Shown here: piece after piece, positions 1-19,779 of the stretch | How the letters are laid out: each line of letters begins with the position of its first letter | Position numbering within the stretch: the first letter of the stretch is position 1 | Virus record (IMG/VR): IMGVR_UViG_3300027708_002074 | Span: 1 to 20,546 of that record | Reading direction: 5' to 3' (one strand) | Length of the DNA: 20,546 nt | From: a virus | The notes under the pieces: generated by a model | Seen by the model: the letters and a program-made list of their open reading frames with translations, nothing else | Told to the model about the DNA's origin: nothing | Databases searched by the model: none | Translations under genes and position numbers: made by a program

Positions 1-1310
1 TCTATTCCTGCCATTTTAGCAACAGCACTATGAAAGTCTGCATTACCTTCTTTATAAGCATCTGCAATTTCATTTATACCATCTAATCTTTGTAGTTTAG
101 CATAATGAATTAATATTCTTGGTTCTTGTTGTGAATAGTCAAATACTCCCCATTTATGATTTTCTTCTGGAATAAATAAAGATCTAATTAATGGACCAAG
201 CTCTTTATGTCTTACAGGTATTTGTTGTAAATTAGGATTAGACATTGAAAATCTTCCTGTAACAGTTCCACCATCATCAGATCTAATTTGATTTATATCT
301 GCATGAATTCTTCCTTTATAAGAATGTTTTACAATTGTATCTATAAAAGTTGTATGTGCTTTGTTTATTTCTCTTGCGTATGAAATACCTTGAACGATTT
401 CATTTGGATGATTTGATAAAAAGTTTTTTGTAAAACTTGGTGCTTTAGTTTTTTCTGTTCTATCATAAGGTAATTTTAAAACATCAAATACTTTAGCAAT
501 AGAAGTTGCTGCCCATAATTCTACAGAAACTCCAGTTAAGTCTTTGATTTTATTGATTATTTTATTTTCTTTTTCTATTAATTGCTTTTTAATTATATCA
601 GCTTTTTCAACATCTACTCTTACACCTTTAAATCTCATATTAACTAAACATGGAAATAATTTAGTTTCCATATCAAATATTGTCCAAAGATCTTGATCTG
701 ATAATTCTATTTTCATTCTATGCCAAAGTTTTAAAGTAGATTCAGCATCTCTTTCGGCATATTGACCAACAAACATAGATGGAAGTTTCCACATATCTTT
801 TTTAGCATCAATTCCATATTCTCTTGCAGCTGCTTGTAATACAGCTTCATCTTTACCTATACCTGCATATTCTTTTGCTAATGCATCTAATCTAAAACTC
901 CATCTATTTTCATTTACTAATGATGCAGCAATCATTGTATCTACAATCTTAGCTGGAGGAGTTATACCTGATGATCTCAACCAACATACGTCATACATCG
1001 CATTATGAAATACAAATACAGCATCTTGTTTAAATAAATCTTGTAACCAATTTAAAACTAATTTCTTATCCATGTTACCACCACCTTCGTGTGCTATCGG
1101 ATAATAACCAGACCATCCTTCTACTGCTACTGCAATACCTACAATCTTACCACGACCAGTAACGTTCCCCGATCCACGTTCCGTTAACTCTGGATCGCAA
1201 GTCTCTAAGTCAATTGCTATTTCTTTATGACCGCGAAGATCTTTTAGTTCTTCTGGTACTACCCATTCTGTTTGTGGTGTAAATAATATCTGTTGAAATG
1301 TACGTGTCAT
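1..1310 (-). CDS. polA: DNA polymerase I (family A) with 3'-5' exonuclease, C-terminal part outside window
   Basis: Replicative phage DNA polymerase, partial: the gene starts at ATG 1310 and runs off the left edge after about 436 codons. The N-terminal part carries a proofreading exonuclease: motif I IAIDLETCD (Asp34 and Glu36), motif II FHNAMYDVCWL and motif III QYAERDAES. There is no 5' nuclease domain. The polymerase part begins with GRFSMSNPNLQQIP and motif A, FDYSQQEPR, which holds the first metal-binding Asp. The window ends just after DFHSAVAKMAGI, before the O-helix and motif C. No Shine-Dalgarno sequence precedes the ATG; instead it overlaps the stop of an upstream 21-codon ORF (ATGA), suggesting translation by re-initiation. 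It is the last gene of the leftward replication operon that is visible here. Family assignment is firm. Confidence 0.95.
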   Translation of the reverse strand, partial: MTRTFQQILFTPQTEWVVPEELKDLRGHKEIAIDLETCDPELTERGSGNVTGRGKIVGIAVAVEGWSGYYPIAHEGGGNMDKKLVLNWLQDLFKQDAVFVFHNAMYDVCWLRSSGITPPAKIVDTMIAASLVNENRWSFRLDALAKEYAGIGKDEAVLQAAAREYGIDAKKDMWKLPSMFVGQYAERDAESTLKLWHRMKIELSDQDLWTIFDMETKLFPCLVNMRFKGVRVDVEKADIIKKQLIEKENKIINKIKDLTGVSVELWAATSIAKVFDVLKLPYDRTEKTKAPSFTKNFLSNHPNEIVQGISYAREINKAHTTFIDTIVKHSYKGRIHADINQIRSDDGGTVTGRFSMSNPNLQQIPVRHKELGPLIRSLFIPEENHKWGVFDYSQQEPRILIHYAKLQRLDGINEIADAYKEGNADFHSAVAKMAGI

Positions 1311-1372
1311 TGAATCATTGCTGAAAGATACAATGCAAGTGATATTCCGTATAATGCTAATGCTATTCCCAT
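1307..1372 (-). CDS. 21-aa hydrophobic membrane micropeptide, leader of polA
   Basis: A very short ORF beginning MGIALALYG and ending SAMIQ. Nearly all of it is hydrophobic, so it could span a membrane once. It has one of the best ribosome binding sites in the window: AAAGGAG at 1378-1384, five bases before ATG 1372. Its TGA overlaps the polymerase ATG (ATGA), and the polymerase has no site of its own. The DUF3310 stop codon lies just upstream at 1386-1388. Seen: the strong site, the overlap and the hydrophobicity. Inferred: it is translated and at least delivers ribosomes to polA; whether the peptide itself acts at the membrane is unknown. The alternative is a pure leader whose peptide has no function. 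Confidence 0.6.
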   Translation of the reverse strand: MGIALALYGISLALYLSAMIQ

Positions 1373-1377
1373 CTTCT

Positions 1378-1384
1378 CTCCTTT
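1378..1384 (-). promoter_or_regulatory. Strong Shine-Dalgarno site (AAAGGAG) of the micropeptide-polA pair
   Basis: AAAGGAG on the minus strand, five bases before ATG 1372. It decides that the 21-codon ORF, not the polymerase, receives the ribosome first. The same heptamer precedes hsp20. Confidence 0.65.
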
Positions 1385-1385
1385 G

Positions 1386-1604
1386 TTATTTATCTTTATA
1401 ATCTCTTTCCAACACCATTTCTAAATAATGAATTGCTTTTAATATATCTTCTTTTTTACCTTTTAACTTATGTCTACATATATATTTAATTGCATTTCCT
1501 TCTGCAAAAGGTAATTGATTTTCGTTTATAAAAACAGATGGTTGTATTTTCATAACTTTATAATGTGAACCACCTACTTGTTTAAAAAATGTTTTGTTTG
1601 TCAT
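1386..1604 (-). CDS. DUF3310 (SaV-like) small protein
   Basis: A 72-aa protein matching the DUF3310/SaV-like family common in phage replication modules. The hallmarks are GGSHY (residues 11-15), IQP (20-22) and the block EGNAIKYICRHK (35-46) followed by KGKKEDILKAIHYLE. The family has no settled biochemical role; its His/Arg-rich pattern and constant company with replication and nucleotide genes suggest a nucleic acid or nucleotide function. Length is typical for the single-domain form. The ATG at 1604 overlaps the helicase stop (ATGA), so it is probably translated by coupling after the helicase. Confidence 0.85.
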   Translation of the reverse strand: MTNKTFFKQVGGSHYKVMKIQPSVFINENQLPFAEGNAIKYICRHKLKGKKEDILKAIHYLEMVLERDYKDK

Positions 1605-8111: not shown

Positions 8112-8195
8112 TCATTTATTATATTTATAAATAAAATATAAGATTACAATTAAACCAATTGCAAAAATTAATGATAATTGTAAAAGTATACTCAT
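8112..8195 (-). CDS. 27-aa single-pass membrane micropeptide after hsp20
   Basis: A short ORF beginning MSILLQLSLIFAIGLIVIL and ending in a basic, aromatic tail (YKYNK). The hydrophobic core of about 20 residues followed by Lys is a textbook single membrane span. Its ATG overlaps the hsp20 stop (TAATG at 8193-8197), the same junction used between clear genes of this genome. It is the last ORF of the rightmost leftward operon before the convergent helicase gene. It could be a lysis accessory (holin, antiholin or spanin-like), but no motif proves that. It resembles in kind, not in sequence, the micropeptide before polA. Confidence 0.55.
   Translation of the reverse strand: MSILLQLSLIFAIGLIVILYFIYKYNK
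8144..8183. repeat. 8-bp inverted repeat between convergent genes
   Basis: TTACAATT (8144-8151) and AATTGTAA (8176-8183) with a 24-base AT-rich loop, lying within the 27-aa ORF close to the meeting point of convergent transcripts. The stem is weak and no T tract follows, so a terminator function is only possible. Confidence 0.3.
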
Positions 8196-8629
8196 TATTT
8201 TATATTTATTTTTTTACCTTCTAAAACTTCAGGATTTTTAATACCTAGTTTTATTTTTAAAAGTCCATCAACCATTTCAGCTTCATCGATTATTACATCA
8301 GATGCTAACTCAAATTGTTTAATGAATTTTCTAAAAGCTAAACCTTTTTGAACATAGTCTACTTTTTTATCTTCAACTTTACCTTCTATAGTTAAGATAC
8401 CGTCTTTTACTTCTACAAGAACGTTTTCTTTATTATATCCAGCAAGTCCTATTTCTAGACCATATTTACCTTTTCCATATTTCACCACATTGTAGAAAGG
8501 GAATGAAGGTATTTTAGACCAACTATCAAATATATTATCAAATATATCTGCAGTTTGTTTTACGAAATGATTATGGAATTCATCCATTTTAATCAAACCG
8601 TTATTTGGGAATAATGAATTGAAAGTCAT
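8195..8629 (-). CDS. Small heat shock protein Hsp20 (IbpA-like)
   Basis: A 144-aa ATP-independent chaperone. The alpha-crystallin domain spans about residues 45-128: YNVVKYGKGKYGLEIGLAGY, then VEVKDGILTIEGK, a region AFRKFIKQFELASDV like bacterial IbpA, and the family end motif DGLLKIKL (121-128). The C-terminal IxI motif that docks subunits is present as INI (141-143). Hsp20 genes are known from T4-like cyanophages and other marine phages, where help with virion protein folding or host stress is supposed. AAAGGAG six bases before ATG 8629 gives a strong own ribosome site. It is followed by a coupled membrane micropeptide and preceded, after a 69-base gap, by a SpeD-family gene. Confidence 0.93.
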   Translation of the reverse strand: MTFNSLFPNNGLIKMDEFHNHFVKQTADIFDNIFDSWSKIPSFPFYNVVKYGKGKYGLEIGLAGYNKENVLVEVKDGILTIEGKVEDKKVDYVQKGLAFRKFIKQFELASDVIIDEAEMVDGLLKIKLGIKNPEVLEGKKINIK

Positions 8630-8698: not shown

Positions 8699-9106
8699 TT
8701 AATTATTAGATTTCAAGTAGCTTATTTTATGTAATTCTTTTAAATTATGTTCTCTATCAAGGAATTTGTATTCTATCTTAGTAGTATTAAAATCTTTCTT
8801 TATTTTTTCACATATTGTTTCTGGATCAAACTCACCGCACGAATAAACATCAAATTGTAATAAGGCGGGATCAGGTTCGTCCCAGACATGCATTACTATA
8901 TGAGATGTCTCTATAATAGCAGCACCCGTTATTCCTCGATTCCCAATCATATGAGAATACTTTACGTATGGTCCTAACATAACTTTCATACCTATTTCTT
9001 CTATAAATTTTTTAAACCATTCTGTAAGAATAGCTTCATCCATCGGAGGATTTTTAGCTTCTGCTCGGACTATTAAATGTTTATGTACTAATATTTTATT
9101 ATCCAT
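8699..9106 (-). CDS. SpeD-family pyruvoyl-dependent decarboxylase (S-adenosylmethionine decarboxylase-like)
   Basis: A 135-aa proenzyme of the AdoMetDC/SpeD fold, close to the usual bacterial class 1B length. Counted from ATG 9106, the self-cleaving Ser68 lies in ETSHIVMHVWDE, with His73 as the processing residue and the conserved Cys90 in DVYSCGEFDP. Cleavage at Ser68 would give the pyruvoyl group. The residue before Ser is Thr, and there are two extra residues (PDPALLQ stretch) between His73 and Cys90 compared with the Thermotoga enzyme as I recall it. A TTG start at 9121 would add five residues, but the N-terminus MDNKILVHKHLIVRA fits the family start. No spermidine synthase is present. 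Some phage SpeD homologues decarboxylate arginine or ornithine instead, so I give no gene symbol. Confidence 0.88.
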   Translation of the reverse strand: MDNKILVHKHLIVRAEAKNPPMDEAILTEWFKKFIEEIGMKVMLGPYVKYSHMIGNRGITGAAIIETSHIVMHVWDEPDPALLQFDVYSCGEFDPETICEKIKKDFNTTKIEYKFLDREHNLKELHKISYLKSNN

Positions 9107-9149
9107 AAACGCGTCATACAACCTTTTGAAACTATTGCAAGAAAATATT

Positions 9150-9590
9150 TTAATTAATATCAGCGCAAGTTCTTAAAACTTCTGCCAGTTCTTCGCATCG
9201 TTTAGGAGTCTGTTTATGCCAATTAGAAGCCAACATATGGACTGCTGCATTAGCATAATCCGATTCTTTTAAAGACTCTAACATCATTTTAAATTTACCC
9301 ACACCCCCAACACCTAATTGAAATACCATTTCTATAACAACTCCTAAAGCATCTTCACATATATTAAATCCACCTACCAAAGTTAAAGCTTGATCACAGG
9401 CAATATCAAAATCTTTATCAAACAAATCATCTAATTCTTGTTTACTATATTCTTTTCCTTCTATAAAATTATCTGTTTTTGTAATTAAATGCCCATAACC
9501 AATTGTAGCTTTACCTAAACTATCTAAATAAACAGTATTTCTAAATCCCTCGTGTTTCTTAATTCTTTCTTTTACTTGTTCAAAACTCAT
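9150..9590 (-). CDS. T4-type lysozyme (endolysin, GH24)
   Basis: A 146-aa muramidase that cuts peptidoglycan for lysis. Catalytic triad in T4 spacing: Glu14 in KKHEGF, Asp23 in YLDSLG and Thr29 in ATIGYGH, the same 9 and 6 residue distances as Glu11, Asp20 and Thr26 of T4 lysozyme. Further down are VIEMVFQLGVGGVGKF and WHKQTPKR, again T4-like. The start is ATG 9590, overlapping the holin stop (ATGA); an upstream in-frame TTG would add a hydrophobic-looking stretch lying inside the holin gene and is unlikely. No signal peptide or signal-anchor is seen, so it needs a holin to cross the membrane, and one lies immediately upstream. Confidence 0.94.
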   Translation of the reverse strand: MSFEQVKERIKKHEGFRNTVYLDSLGKATIGYGHLITKTDNFIEGKEYSKQELDDLFDKDFDIACDQALTLVGGFNICEDALGVVIEMVFQLGVGGVGKFKMMLESLKESDYANAAVHMLASNWHKQTPKRCEELAEVLRTCADIN

Positions 9591-9814
9591 TTTAATTTTA
9601 AAACTATAGCTATTAATGATAAAATCAATGCACCCATTCCACCAATCATAAACCAAAGTATCTTATCTACTTTCTTTTCTATTTTATAGATAGCACAGCT
9701 CATATGCTTGAGGTGATTATTTTTAATTACAGATATATCTTTTTTAAGATTATCTACTCTATTGTAAAGGTCTATCATGTGATCTTCTAATCTTGATTTA
9801 ATAATACGTTTCAT
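9587..9814 (-). CDS. XhlA-like holin/lysis membrane protein
   Basis: A 75-aa protein with a long charged N-terminal helix, heptad-like over residues 10-50 (IDLYNRVDNLKKDISVIKNN), and one C-terminal membrane span of about residues 53-72 (WFMIGGMGALILSLIAIVL) ending in Lys. This layout, a coiled coil followed by a single C-terminal span, is that of the XhlA/hemolysin family of holin-associated proteins. Its stop overlaps the lysozyme start (ATGA), the classical holin-endolysin pairing. Whether it forms holes alone or helps another holin cannot be told; the 27-aa micropeptide downstream could be a partner. Confidence 0.75.
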   Translation of the reverse strand: MKRIIKSRLEDHMIDLYNRVDNLKKDISVIKNNHLKHMSCAIYKIEKKVDKILWFMIGGMGALILSLIAIVLKLK

Positions 9815-17514: not shown

Positions 17515-18261
17515 CTACGATTTTATAGTAAGGTCAACAGCTTTTGGTTTGAACATCATGCTTAGAGAACCTTTAAAAGCATGTCCACCAAAGTGACTTA
17601 ATTCAGTAGTAGCATCGGCATATATTTTACCACCTGTATCTACCCATAATTTACAGAAGCAAATATCTTCACCTAGATAACCATTTACAGGATCTACTCC
17701 TGTTTCAAAGAATGTGTACCAATCTGTATCCATTACTTCTACTTTATTACCTACTAATTGTTTATTAACAGTTTTTTTATCTGGATATGATTTTTTCATC
17801 TTTTCAAACGCTTCGCGTTTAATCATCATAAATCCAGTAGGTCCTGCTGTAATTTCTACAAAGCCATCTTTACCTAATTTAACATCATCTTTATTAGGAA
17901 AATGTACAATAAACTGTAATCCATAATTAGCTCCAAATCCTTTAACAGCGTATGGAGTAAGAACTATGTCTTCATCTTTTTCTAATAATCTATAAACCGC
18001 TTCTGGTTCAAATCCAATATCCGCGTCTATAAAAAGAAAATGCGTGCAGTCTGATTTCATAAATGACGCTACACAATTATTTCTAGCTTGTGTAACTAAA
18101 GCCATTCCTGATTGTAAATGGATTGCAGTAGATACTTGTAATCTTGGATGTTGAGTTGATACGAATCGCATTACGCTATTCATGTAATTAGTAGTAACTT
18201 GATGCCCGAAAGCAGGAGTTGCTATAAATAATTTAATCTGCTTTTTTTTGTTCTCTGACAT
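17515..18261 (-). CDS. GT-A type (family 2-like) glycosyltransferase
   Basis: A 248-aa sugar transferase with a single nucleotide-sugar binding domain. Motifs: KLFIATPAFG near the N-terminus, TQARNNCVASFM (57-68), the metal-binding FLFIDADIGF (75-84, Asp-Ala-Asp at 79-81), ITAGPTGFMMIKREAF (137-152), GYLGEDICFCKLW (194-206), which holds the probable catalytic acidic pair, and LSHFGGHAF (221-229). Similar short proteins are frequent in cyanophages and pelagiphages. It overlaps the upstream glycosyltransferase gene by 29 bases, so both belong to one translation unit. The acceptor is unknown: virion protein, host surface polysaccharide or DNA base are all possible. No membrane segment is seen. 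Confidence 0.85.
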   Translation of the reverse strand: MSENKKKQIKLFIATPAFGHQVTTNYMNSVMRFVSTQHPRLQVSTAIHLQSGMALVTQARNNCVASFMKSDCTHFLFIDADIGFEPEAVYRLLEKDEDIVLTPYAVKGFGANYGLQFIVHFPNKDDVKLGKDGFVEITAGPTGFMMIKREAFEKMKKSYPDKKTVNKQLVGNKVEVMDTDWYTFFETGVDPVNGYLGEDICFCKLWVDTGGKIYADATTELSHFGGHAFKGSLSMMFKPKAVDLTIKS

Positions 18262-19168
18262 AATTTAAAAAGTTTTTCCATTCTTGTATTCTTGTATTCC
18301 AAGAATAATATTTTTTATAGTATTTAGTTTGCATTTCTAAGTCGTCTTTATAAAGATTGTTTTTATAATTGTCAATTACAGAGTTTAATGTCTGTGCATA
18401 TCTTTCAATTAAATTATTAACACTTGAATCAAATTCAATCATTGTTGCAAATTCACCACATGTTTCTGGAAGAGCACCATAGTTAGTAGTTACTACATGA
18501 CAGCCAGCTGACATCGCTTCAATAGCAGCAAGACATGATGTTTCTTCAAATATACTTGGGTAAGCATAGATATGAGTATCTTTTAATAATTCTCTTATTT
18601 GAACATTAAGACCATAACCATGATAATTAACATTTTTTGTATTTTTACATTTTTCAAATAATGCATCAAACTTACCTTTTTCAGATTCTTCAAATGCATC
18701 ACCATATATTTTAGTTGATGAAAATATATCTACCTCAAAATCATCTCTAGTTTTATTTAAAATATCAATAGCTTTAATAAGAATAGCTAAACCTCTCCAT
18801 GGAGTTGAAGTATAAGCAATTCTAATTCTACCTGCTTTATTTCTATTAATTTCTTCAAATTCATAAGTTGCGTTTTTAATAATAAATGATTTGTATTCAG
18901 GTATTTGGAAATGTTCTCTAAACTTATTGTATTGCCAATGACTAACATAAACAAAGTAATCTACTGAATCTACAAACTTACGATCGCGCATGTATTGAAC
19001 ATTAGGTTGATCATAACTTAAATGTTGCCAAACAACGTTGATCTTATCTTTTTGAATTAATTGAGGATGACAAATAGAACCAATTAAATTAATTCCTTCA
19101 ATAGATTCTGAATCTAATTGACTAATTAACTGCTCTTTTAATATCTCTGTTCCACCTTTAGGAGTCAT
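18233..19168 (-). CDS. GT-B type (family 4-like) glycosyltransferase
   Basis: A 311-aa glycosyltransferase of the GT1/GT4 kind. The N-terminal Gly-rich acceptor loop is PKGGTEILKEQL (3-14). The C-terminal nucleotide-sugar domain has IAYTSTPWRGLAILIKAI (117-134), VNYHGYG, YPSIFEETSCLAAIEAMSAG (203-222) with the E-x7-E pair (Glu209, Glu217), and VVTTNYGALPET (225-236). It is somewhat shorter than the usual 350-400 aa, with a reduced N-terminal domain. ATG 19168 overlaps the stop of the FkbM gene (ATGA). With its neighbours it forms a small glycan-modifying cassette within the virion region. Confidence 0.88.
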   Translation of the reverse strand: MTPKGGTEILKEQLISQLDSESIEGINLIGSICHPQLIQKDKINVVWQHLSYDQPNVQYMRDRKFVDSVDYFVYVSHWQYNKFREHFQIPEYKSFIIKNATYEFEEINRNKAGRIRIAYTSTPWRGLAILIKAIDILNKTRDDFEVDIFSSTKIYGDAFEESEKGKFDALFEKCKNTKNVNYHGYGLNVQIRELLKDTHIYAYPSIFEETSCLAAIEAMSAGCHVVTTNYGALPETCGEFATMIEFDSSVNNLIERYAQTLNSVIDNYKNNLYKDDLEMQTKYYKKYYSWNTRIQEWKNFLNYVREQKKAD

Positions 19169-19779
19169 TTTATATTTCTATTTATAAACAATCCATCGAC
19201 TTGAATCAAGTGATTATTTGAATACATAAGATCAAATAAATCAACAAACCCAAAACCAAGACCATGTAAATACGATACGACTTCCTCTATTAGCGGAGCG
19301 CCTTTATTGTATTGATATGTTTGTAATTCTAATAATAGATACTTTGTATTCTTTATTATAGGCAAAGCTCCTTTAATAATATTAAGTTCAGATCCTTGGA
19401 CATCCATTTTAATTAAATCAAATCCCTTTTCTGAACCTAATAAAGTCGGTAATGTTATTGCTTTTCTCTTTTCAGGTTTAAATTCATATTCTGTATTTTC
19501 AGGATAGATACCATTTCCTGTAGGAACTTCATTTAAACATTTATAATAATCAACTTCTTCATTATCTTTTGATCCTAATAAAGCTATTTTATAATTGCCT
19601 ATTTGTTTTAGAATATCTTCTTTTTCTGTATTAGCTTCTATCATTAATACATTTGCATCAGGATAAATGCTTGTGAATAACTTAGCCCAATTACCTTCAT
19701 AAGCGCCAATATCTAATACATTGTTAAATTCAATGTTTAAACTTTTATAGTGATTAAATCTCTTCTCGTGTGGTGTCAT
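19165..19779 (-). CDS. FkbM-family SAM-dependent methyltransferase
   Basis: A 204-aa methyltransferase. Motif I, which binds S-adenosylmethionine, is VLDIGAYEGNWAKLF (21-35); NVLMIEAN (43-50) is the acidic strand-2 motif; the FkbM signature is DLIKMDVQGSELNIIKGA (121-138), then KYLLLELQTYQYNKGAPLIE. FkbM enzymes usually O-methylate sugars or other small hydroxyl groups, and in phages they are often found beside glycosyltransferases, as here. Length is typical. The start ATG 19779 overlaps the upstream stop (TAATG), and the stop overlaps the GT4 start. The likely job is capping a glycan made by the neighbouring transferases (inference). Confidence 0.9.
   Translation of the reverse strand: MTPHEKRFNHYKSLNIEFNNVLDIGAYEGNWAKLFTSIYPDANVLMIEANTEKEDILKQIGNYKIALLGSKDNEEVDYYKCLNEVPTGNGIYPENTEYEFKPEKRKAITLPTLLGSEKGFDLIKMDVQGSELNIIKGALPIIKNTKYLLLELQTYQYNKGAPLIEEVVSYLHGLGFGFVDLFDLMYSNNHLIQVDGLFINRNIK

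Follow-up and report, generated by a model that had tools for sequence, protein, structure and literature searches.

A 21-codon hydrophobic open reading frame (ORF) lies between a DUF3310 gene and the DNA polymerase A gene (polA) in the window, by which we mean the whole 20,546-nt stretch of viral DNA analysed here. We read it, with a probability of roughly 0.6, as an optional gene for a single-pass membrane micropeptide, inserted at a cassette site in such a way that the coupling of polA to upstream translation would be preserved. The phages that carry it are relatives of HTVC023P/HTVC027P-type pelagiphages.

The micropeptide ORF belongs to a compact replication operon on the minus strand of the window, in which polA runs into the contig end (Table 1). 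Its anatomy is as the initial annotation had described it: a Shine-Dalgarno (SD) sequence, five nucleotides, an ATG, 21 hydrophobic codons and a TGA that shares an ATGA with polA are all found exactly, on the minus strand, which the annotation had left unstated. The peptide has a GRAVY of 1.67. The same annotation had held that polA is without a ribosome site of its own, and the predicted anti-SD pairing agrees, with -8.9 kcal/mol at the micropeptide start versus +0.6 kcal/mol at the polA start, whose ATG (1310-1308, minus strand) is the earliest possible start of the polA frame. The absence of an SD is not unique to polA, as several further overlapping genes in the window also lack one. Elsewhere in the window, host-like genes for an Hsp20 small heat-shock protein and an S-adenosylmethionine decarboxylase (8195-8629 and 8699-9121, minus strand) adjoin a phage lysozyme gene (9150-9656), and a glycosyltransferase group 1 gene lies next to an FkbM methyltransferase gene (18233-19779, minus strand).

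Table 1. Positions in the window of the micropeptide gene, its junction with polA and the surrounding replication genes.
Feature	Position	Strand	Basis or remark
polA, N-terminal 436 aa, cut at contig end	3..1310	minus	Pfam PF00476, PF01612
ATGA overlap, micropeptide stop/polA start	1307..1310	minus	sequence; 12 of 13 haplotypes, TAATG in L301
Micropeptide stop TGA	1309-1307	minus	
Micropeptide ORF including stop, 21 aa, single hydrophobic span, MGIALALYGISLALYLSAMIQ	1307..1372	minus	sequence, 13 homologous haplotypes, substitution pattern
Micropeptide start ATG	1372-1370	minus	
Spacer AGAAG, 5 nt, between SD and micropeptide ATG	1377-1373	minus	sequence
SD AAAGGAG of micropeptide	1378..1384	minus	sequence; anti-SD energy -8.9 kcal/mol
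79-nt segment missing in direct DUF3310/polA overlaps	1310..1388	minus	L009, L013, L016 (...GATAAA/TGACACG)
DUF3310 protein gene, 72 aa, upstream of micropeptide	1386..1604	minus	Pfam PF11753
UvrD-type helicase	3109-1601	minus	
60-aa ORF between primase and helicase		minus	
AEP-type primase	4741-3203	minus	

The junction is common to two contigs nearly identical to the window (L085, 99.73% identity over 6,326 nt; L090, 99.79% over 8,622 nt) and is also found in a third (L089) with 92% identity over 8.4 kb, where the micropeptide gene differs by two synonymous changes. Because these contigs carry the same junction, an assembly error is excluded as its origin.

To define the family, hereafter family A, we collected its members in IMG/VR with a degenerate peptide pattern. 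All 15 pattern matches sit directly 5' of polA and make up 13 distinct nucleotide haplotypes of the ORF, all at this one place, which is more than chance would give. Three loci (L086, L087 and L088) were rejected as relatives, their pattern matches being internal parts of larger proteins. Family A peptides, such as MGIALALYGISLALYLSAMIQ, MEIALILYGISLALYISAIVK and MEIAIALYGVSIALYILSMMQ, are about 20-21 aa long and share the core IA-x-x-LYG-x-S-x-ALY. An SD precedes the micropeptide in all 13 haplotypes and is strong in nearly all, with a mean anti-SD energy of -8.6 kcal/mol. The spacer ahead of the ORF varies in length, and there are no indels or stops within the ORF, even though haplotypes differ at up to 15 of 60 positions.

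These observations bear on whether the ORF is a neutral or decaying insert, or a by-product of mosaic exchange, maintained without selection. Such an origin would fit the patchy distribution, the small data set and the lack of significance in the unbiased subset (below), but in neutral simulations with 14 changes a stop was gained in 64%, while none of the 13 haplotypes has a stop or a frameshift, and the SD is nearly always kept. Substitutions were counted as the initial annotation had proposed. On the family tree there are 19 synonymous and 18 nonsynonymous events, against a neutral expectation of 27-29% synonymous (P=0.001-0.003), a whole-ORF statistic affected by the search pattern, which constrained the first 11 codons. 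In codons 12-20 the counts are 10 and 12 (P=0.04-0.08), and the 12 nonsynonymous events there all lead to residues that are small or aliphatic (P about 0.02). For the five members found via flanking genes alone, the counts are 10 and 14 (P=0.12). The proposed comparison thus gave a synonymous excess over all 13 haplotypes, and was not significant in the unbiased subset. The family A dN/dS is about 0.35-0.5, with modest statistics, and mean pN/pS is 0.36 for the micropeptide versus 0.15 for polA in the same genomes. Taken together, we read the substitution pattern as purifying selection of weak to moderate strength on the hydrophobic peptide, and no conserved RNA structure accounts for it. With its frame kept, its changes conservative and its SD retained, the micropeptide ORF is probably a genuine gene, and we regard an insert free of selection as quite unlikely.

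To place the gene among its relatives, we compared about 330 loci retrieved by polA, DUF3310 and peptide patterns. In most of the sampled relatives DUF3310 directly overlaps polA in an ATGA, with no micropeptide between. Within these sets, which were selected by similarity and for which alone the frequencies are valid, a recognised DUF3310 overlaps polA by 4 nt in 118 of 157 distinct polA junctions, and in 116 of about 190 DUF3310 junctions polA starts one base ahead of the DUF3310 stop. The same micropeptide is present in only 5 of the 80 best DUF3310 relatives, with the window's own population counted. In one relative (L210), 703 nt of polA match the window at 97.9% identity, yet DUF3310 and polA simply overlap there in an ATGA. 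A universal and essential micropeptide is rejected by such empty junctions, which most relatives have. To account for its presence and absence, at least 7 state changes are needed on the polA tree, and the upstream tree requires 6-7; since both trees need several changes, it was not simply carried along by one flank. The initial annotation had proposed a search for short hydrophobic ORFs with an ATGA junction upstream of polA in related phages, and would have counted relatives that keep only the SD, without an open frame or hydrophobic character, against the gene. The 13 haplotypes, with ATGA or TAATG junctions, answer to the first part of this, while most relatives are empty; absence is common, but every genome that has the ORF retains both its frame and its hydrophobic character.

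The DUF3310-polA junction is a cassette site, found empty or occupied by an endonuclease VII ORF, by family A or by unrelated membrane micropeptides. Three relatives (L008, L210 and L212) share 98.8-99.7% identity upstream, and the junction is empty in L008 and L210. In L212, which is 99.7% identical to L008 upstream, a 159-aa endonuclease VII ORF (PF02945; L212:2216-2695) sits exactly between DUF3310 and polA, and polA has its own AAAGGAG after this ORF. A 63-aa hydrophobic ORF is found at the L180 junction, with a similar one in L320 ahead of a family A peptide, and the L282 junction holds two micropeptides in tandem. Five loci (L257, L258, L276, L277 and L325), in which polA is more distant, have a 28-aa micropeptide of a second family, B, with DMGLxTCxCV in its hydrophobic part. 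In L027 there is a 21-aa hydrophobic ORF, unrelated or very distant to family A, with an SD and an ATGA. The family B ORF starts over the DUF3310 stop and ends beside polA or a few bases before it; in L254 it is shortened by a one-base difference. The DUF3310 genes of L254 and L258 are 94% identical to that of the window and their polA only about 48%, a contrast that makes the junction look like a recombination boundary as well.

We then considered what an insertion at this site would mean for polA translation. At direct junctions (n=88) the polA SD has a mean of -4.8 kcal/mol and is supplied by the DUF3310 codons for ...ERDY; after a micropeptide the mean is -0.1 kcal/mol. The micropeptide insertion thus displaces the SD that DUF3310 codons give to polA. 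The stop/start overlap of termination-reinitiation pairs is present throughout family A (ATGA in 12 haplotypes, TAATG in one). Of 14 overlapping native gene pairs tested, 13 showed strict coupling (Huber et al. 2019, PMC6728339), and in a 2023 study coupling was nearly gone at gaps of about 20 nt, while 15 nt of the upstream gene were enough for it (PMC10666635). From these rules and the SD displacement, it follows that an insert must either provide polA with a new SD, which is the case in L212, or end in a coupling overlap, which is the solution seen with the micropeptide. In the default, and presumably ancestral, junction the DUF3310 stop and the polA start share an ATGA, and a moderate polA SD lies inside DUF3310 codons. 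The inserted segment supplies a strong SD and the micropeptide and again ends in ATGA, and ribosomes finishing the micropeptide would reinitiate on polA. Because polA in carriers is without an SD and the overlap is ATGA, polA probably depends there on micropeptide translation. The suggestion that the polymerase needs the micropeptide is accordingly probable for carriers and fails as a general need, since most relatives couple polA to DUF3310. When the SD was lost from five E. coli pairs, reinitiation fell by 60-90% in three of them and ceased in one. Since SD removal lowered reinitiation in most of the pairs tested, more peptide than polymerase would be expected, and the yield of PolA may be below that of the micropeptide.

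The same features might be taken to mean that the mini-cistron only brings ribosomes to polA and that its amino-acid sequence is irrelevant. A strong SD in nearly all haplotypes, an SD-less polA start and an exact ATGA end would all suit such a device, and PMC5995908 describes short first cistrons that act as coupling leaders in engineered systems. However, the amino-acid changes are conservative and the hydrophobic character is always kept. The device would moreover be unneeded, since in the default junction polA has an SD and is already coupled to DUF3310. We consider it rather unlikely. An RNA leader or attenuator was rejected: the alignment fold around the leader (-4.5 kcal/mol, 0 of 15 pairs with a compensatory change) revealed no conserved structure, and folding of the window (z-score +0.63) gave no support for a structured leader. 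The idea of a leader that sets polymerase level by conserved design is thus not upheld, with most relatives lacking the micropeptide and RNA folding lending it no support.

The initial annotation had also suggested that the peptide could link replication to the membrane. On this reading it would be a tether or regulator of the phage replisome, made together with PolA. In its favour, every family A member sits directly before polA, and in other lineages this junction holds unrelated membrane micropeptides (family B and L027). But the micropeptide is missing in most relatives and is dispensable even among close ones, so that a constant association with the replication gene is not seen, and the junction carries endonuclease and other ORFs too. 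For specificity, we scanned 590 kb of the relatives' loci for ORFs that encode 15-35 aa, are hydrophobic and have an SD better than -6. Away from the polA junction this revealed several other membrane micropeptide families, among them MNYYFTGILIILLVLMAFFMEPGYVPR and MIDKIKNMANKCWCNHKVC..., the former ATGA-coupled to a 127-142-aa ORF, not polA. A membrane link specific to replication is thus not supported; these genomes have similar strong-SD micropeptides at other places too, and the gene to which some of them are ATGA-coupled is not polA. We regard a replisome tether as very unlikely. It is likewise very unlikely that the junction repeatedly recruits unrelated single-pass membrane micropeptides (family A, family B and L027) for co-translation with the polymerase because a membrane peptide kept in constant proportion to PolA adjusts replication at the membrane.

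Among the individual loci, a 27-aa membrane micropeptide MNYYFTG(I/T)LI... with a strong SD (L141:4540, L145:3683, L149:4540 and L164:4540) is ATGA-coupled to a 127-142-aa ORF downstream of polA. Micropeptides of the MIDKIKNMANKCWCNHKVC... type, 33-34 aa long with a polar N-part and a hydrophobic C-part, lie downstream of polA in many relatives (for example L001:7436, L137:4506, L140:3747 and L163:4512). The existence of families beyond the polA junction indicates that small membrane genes are general to this phage group. The link of the family A micropeptide to polA is probably positional, judging from these comparisons, and as a guess it might have an accessory function that acts on the host membrane or against competing phages. 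For the 21-aa query, PHROGs gave no profile match and tblastn against 50,697 phage records gave no match, very short queries being weak in both searches. Literature searches of partial coverage found no description of a membrane micropeptide encoded ahead of a DNA polymerase gene in a phage.

Closely related phages, some of which have a 21-codon gene between two shared neighbours while others lack it, amount to a natural presence/absence experiment. In the carriers, polymerase translation appears to have been switched from an SD within DUF3310 to an ATGA that the micropeptide feeds. Membrane genes of this very small size, which gene callers usually overlook, can thus enter a compact operon with the coupling seemingly unbroken, and comparative data can separate such tiny ORFs from noise.

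The arrangement resembles known ATGA-coupled pairs (PMC6728339, PMC10666635) in its 4-nt overlap, its upstream gene with an SD and its downstream gene on the same strand; it differs in that the upstream gene has only 21 codons and the downstream gene no SD. The engineered bicistronic-design leaders (for example PMC5995908 and PMC10367133) likewise have a short first cistron feeding a second, but are engineered, and their leader protein sequence is not intended to function. The replication module of HTVC023P/HTVC027P-type phages (MN698239, MN698241; MW574966 023Pt_psg01; PMC9599517) has the same order of primase, UvrD-type helicase, small ORFs/DUF3310 and polA, whereas none of the three annotated records inspected has this micropeptide at the junction. 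Over 2 million phage small proteins (<100 aa) have been predicted (reviewed in PMC11323111); like many of these, the micropeptide is encoded by a tiny gene beside core genes, but at 21 aa it stands at the extreme small end, and here one can see both its presence or absence and how it affects the ribosome site of the neighbouring gene.
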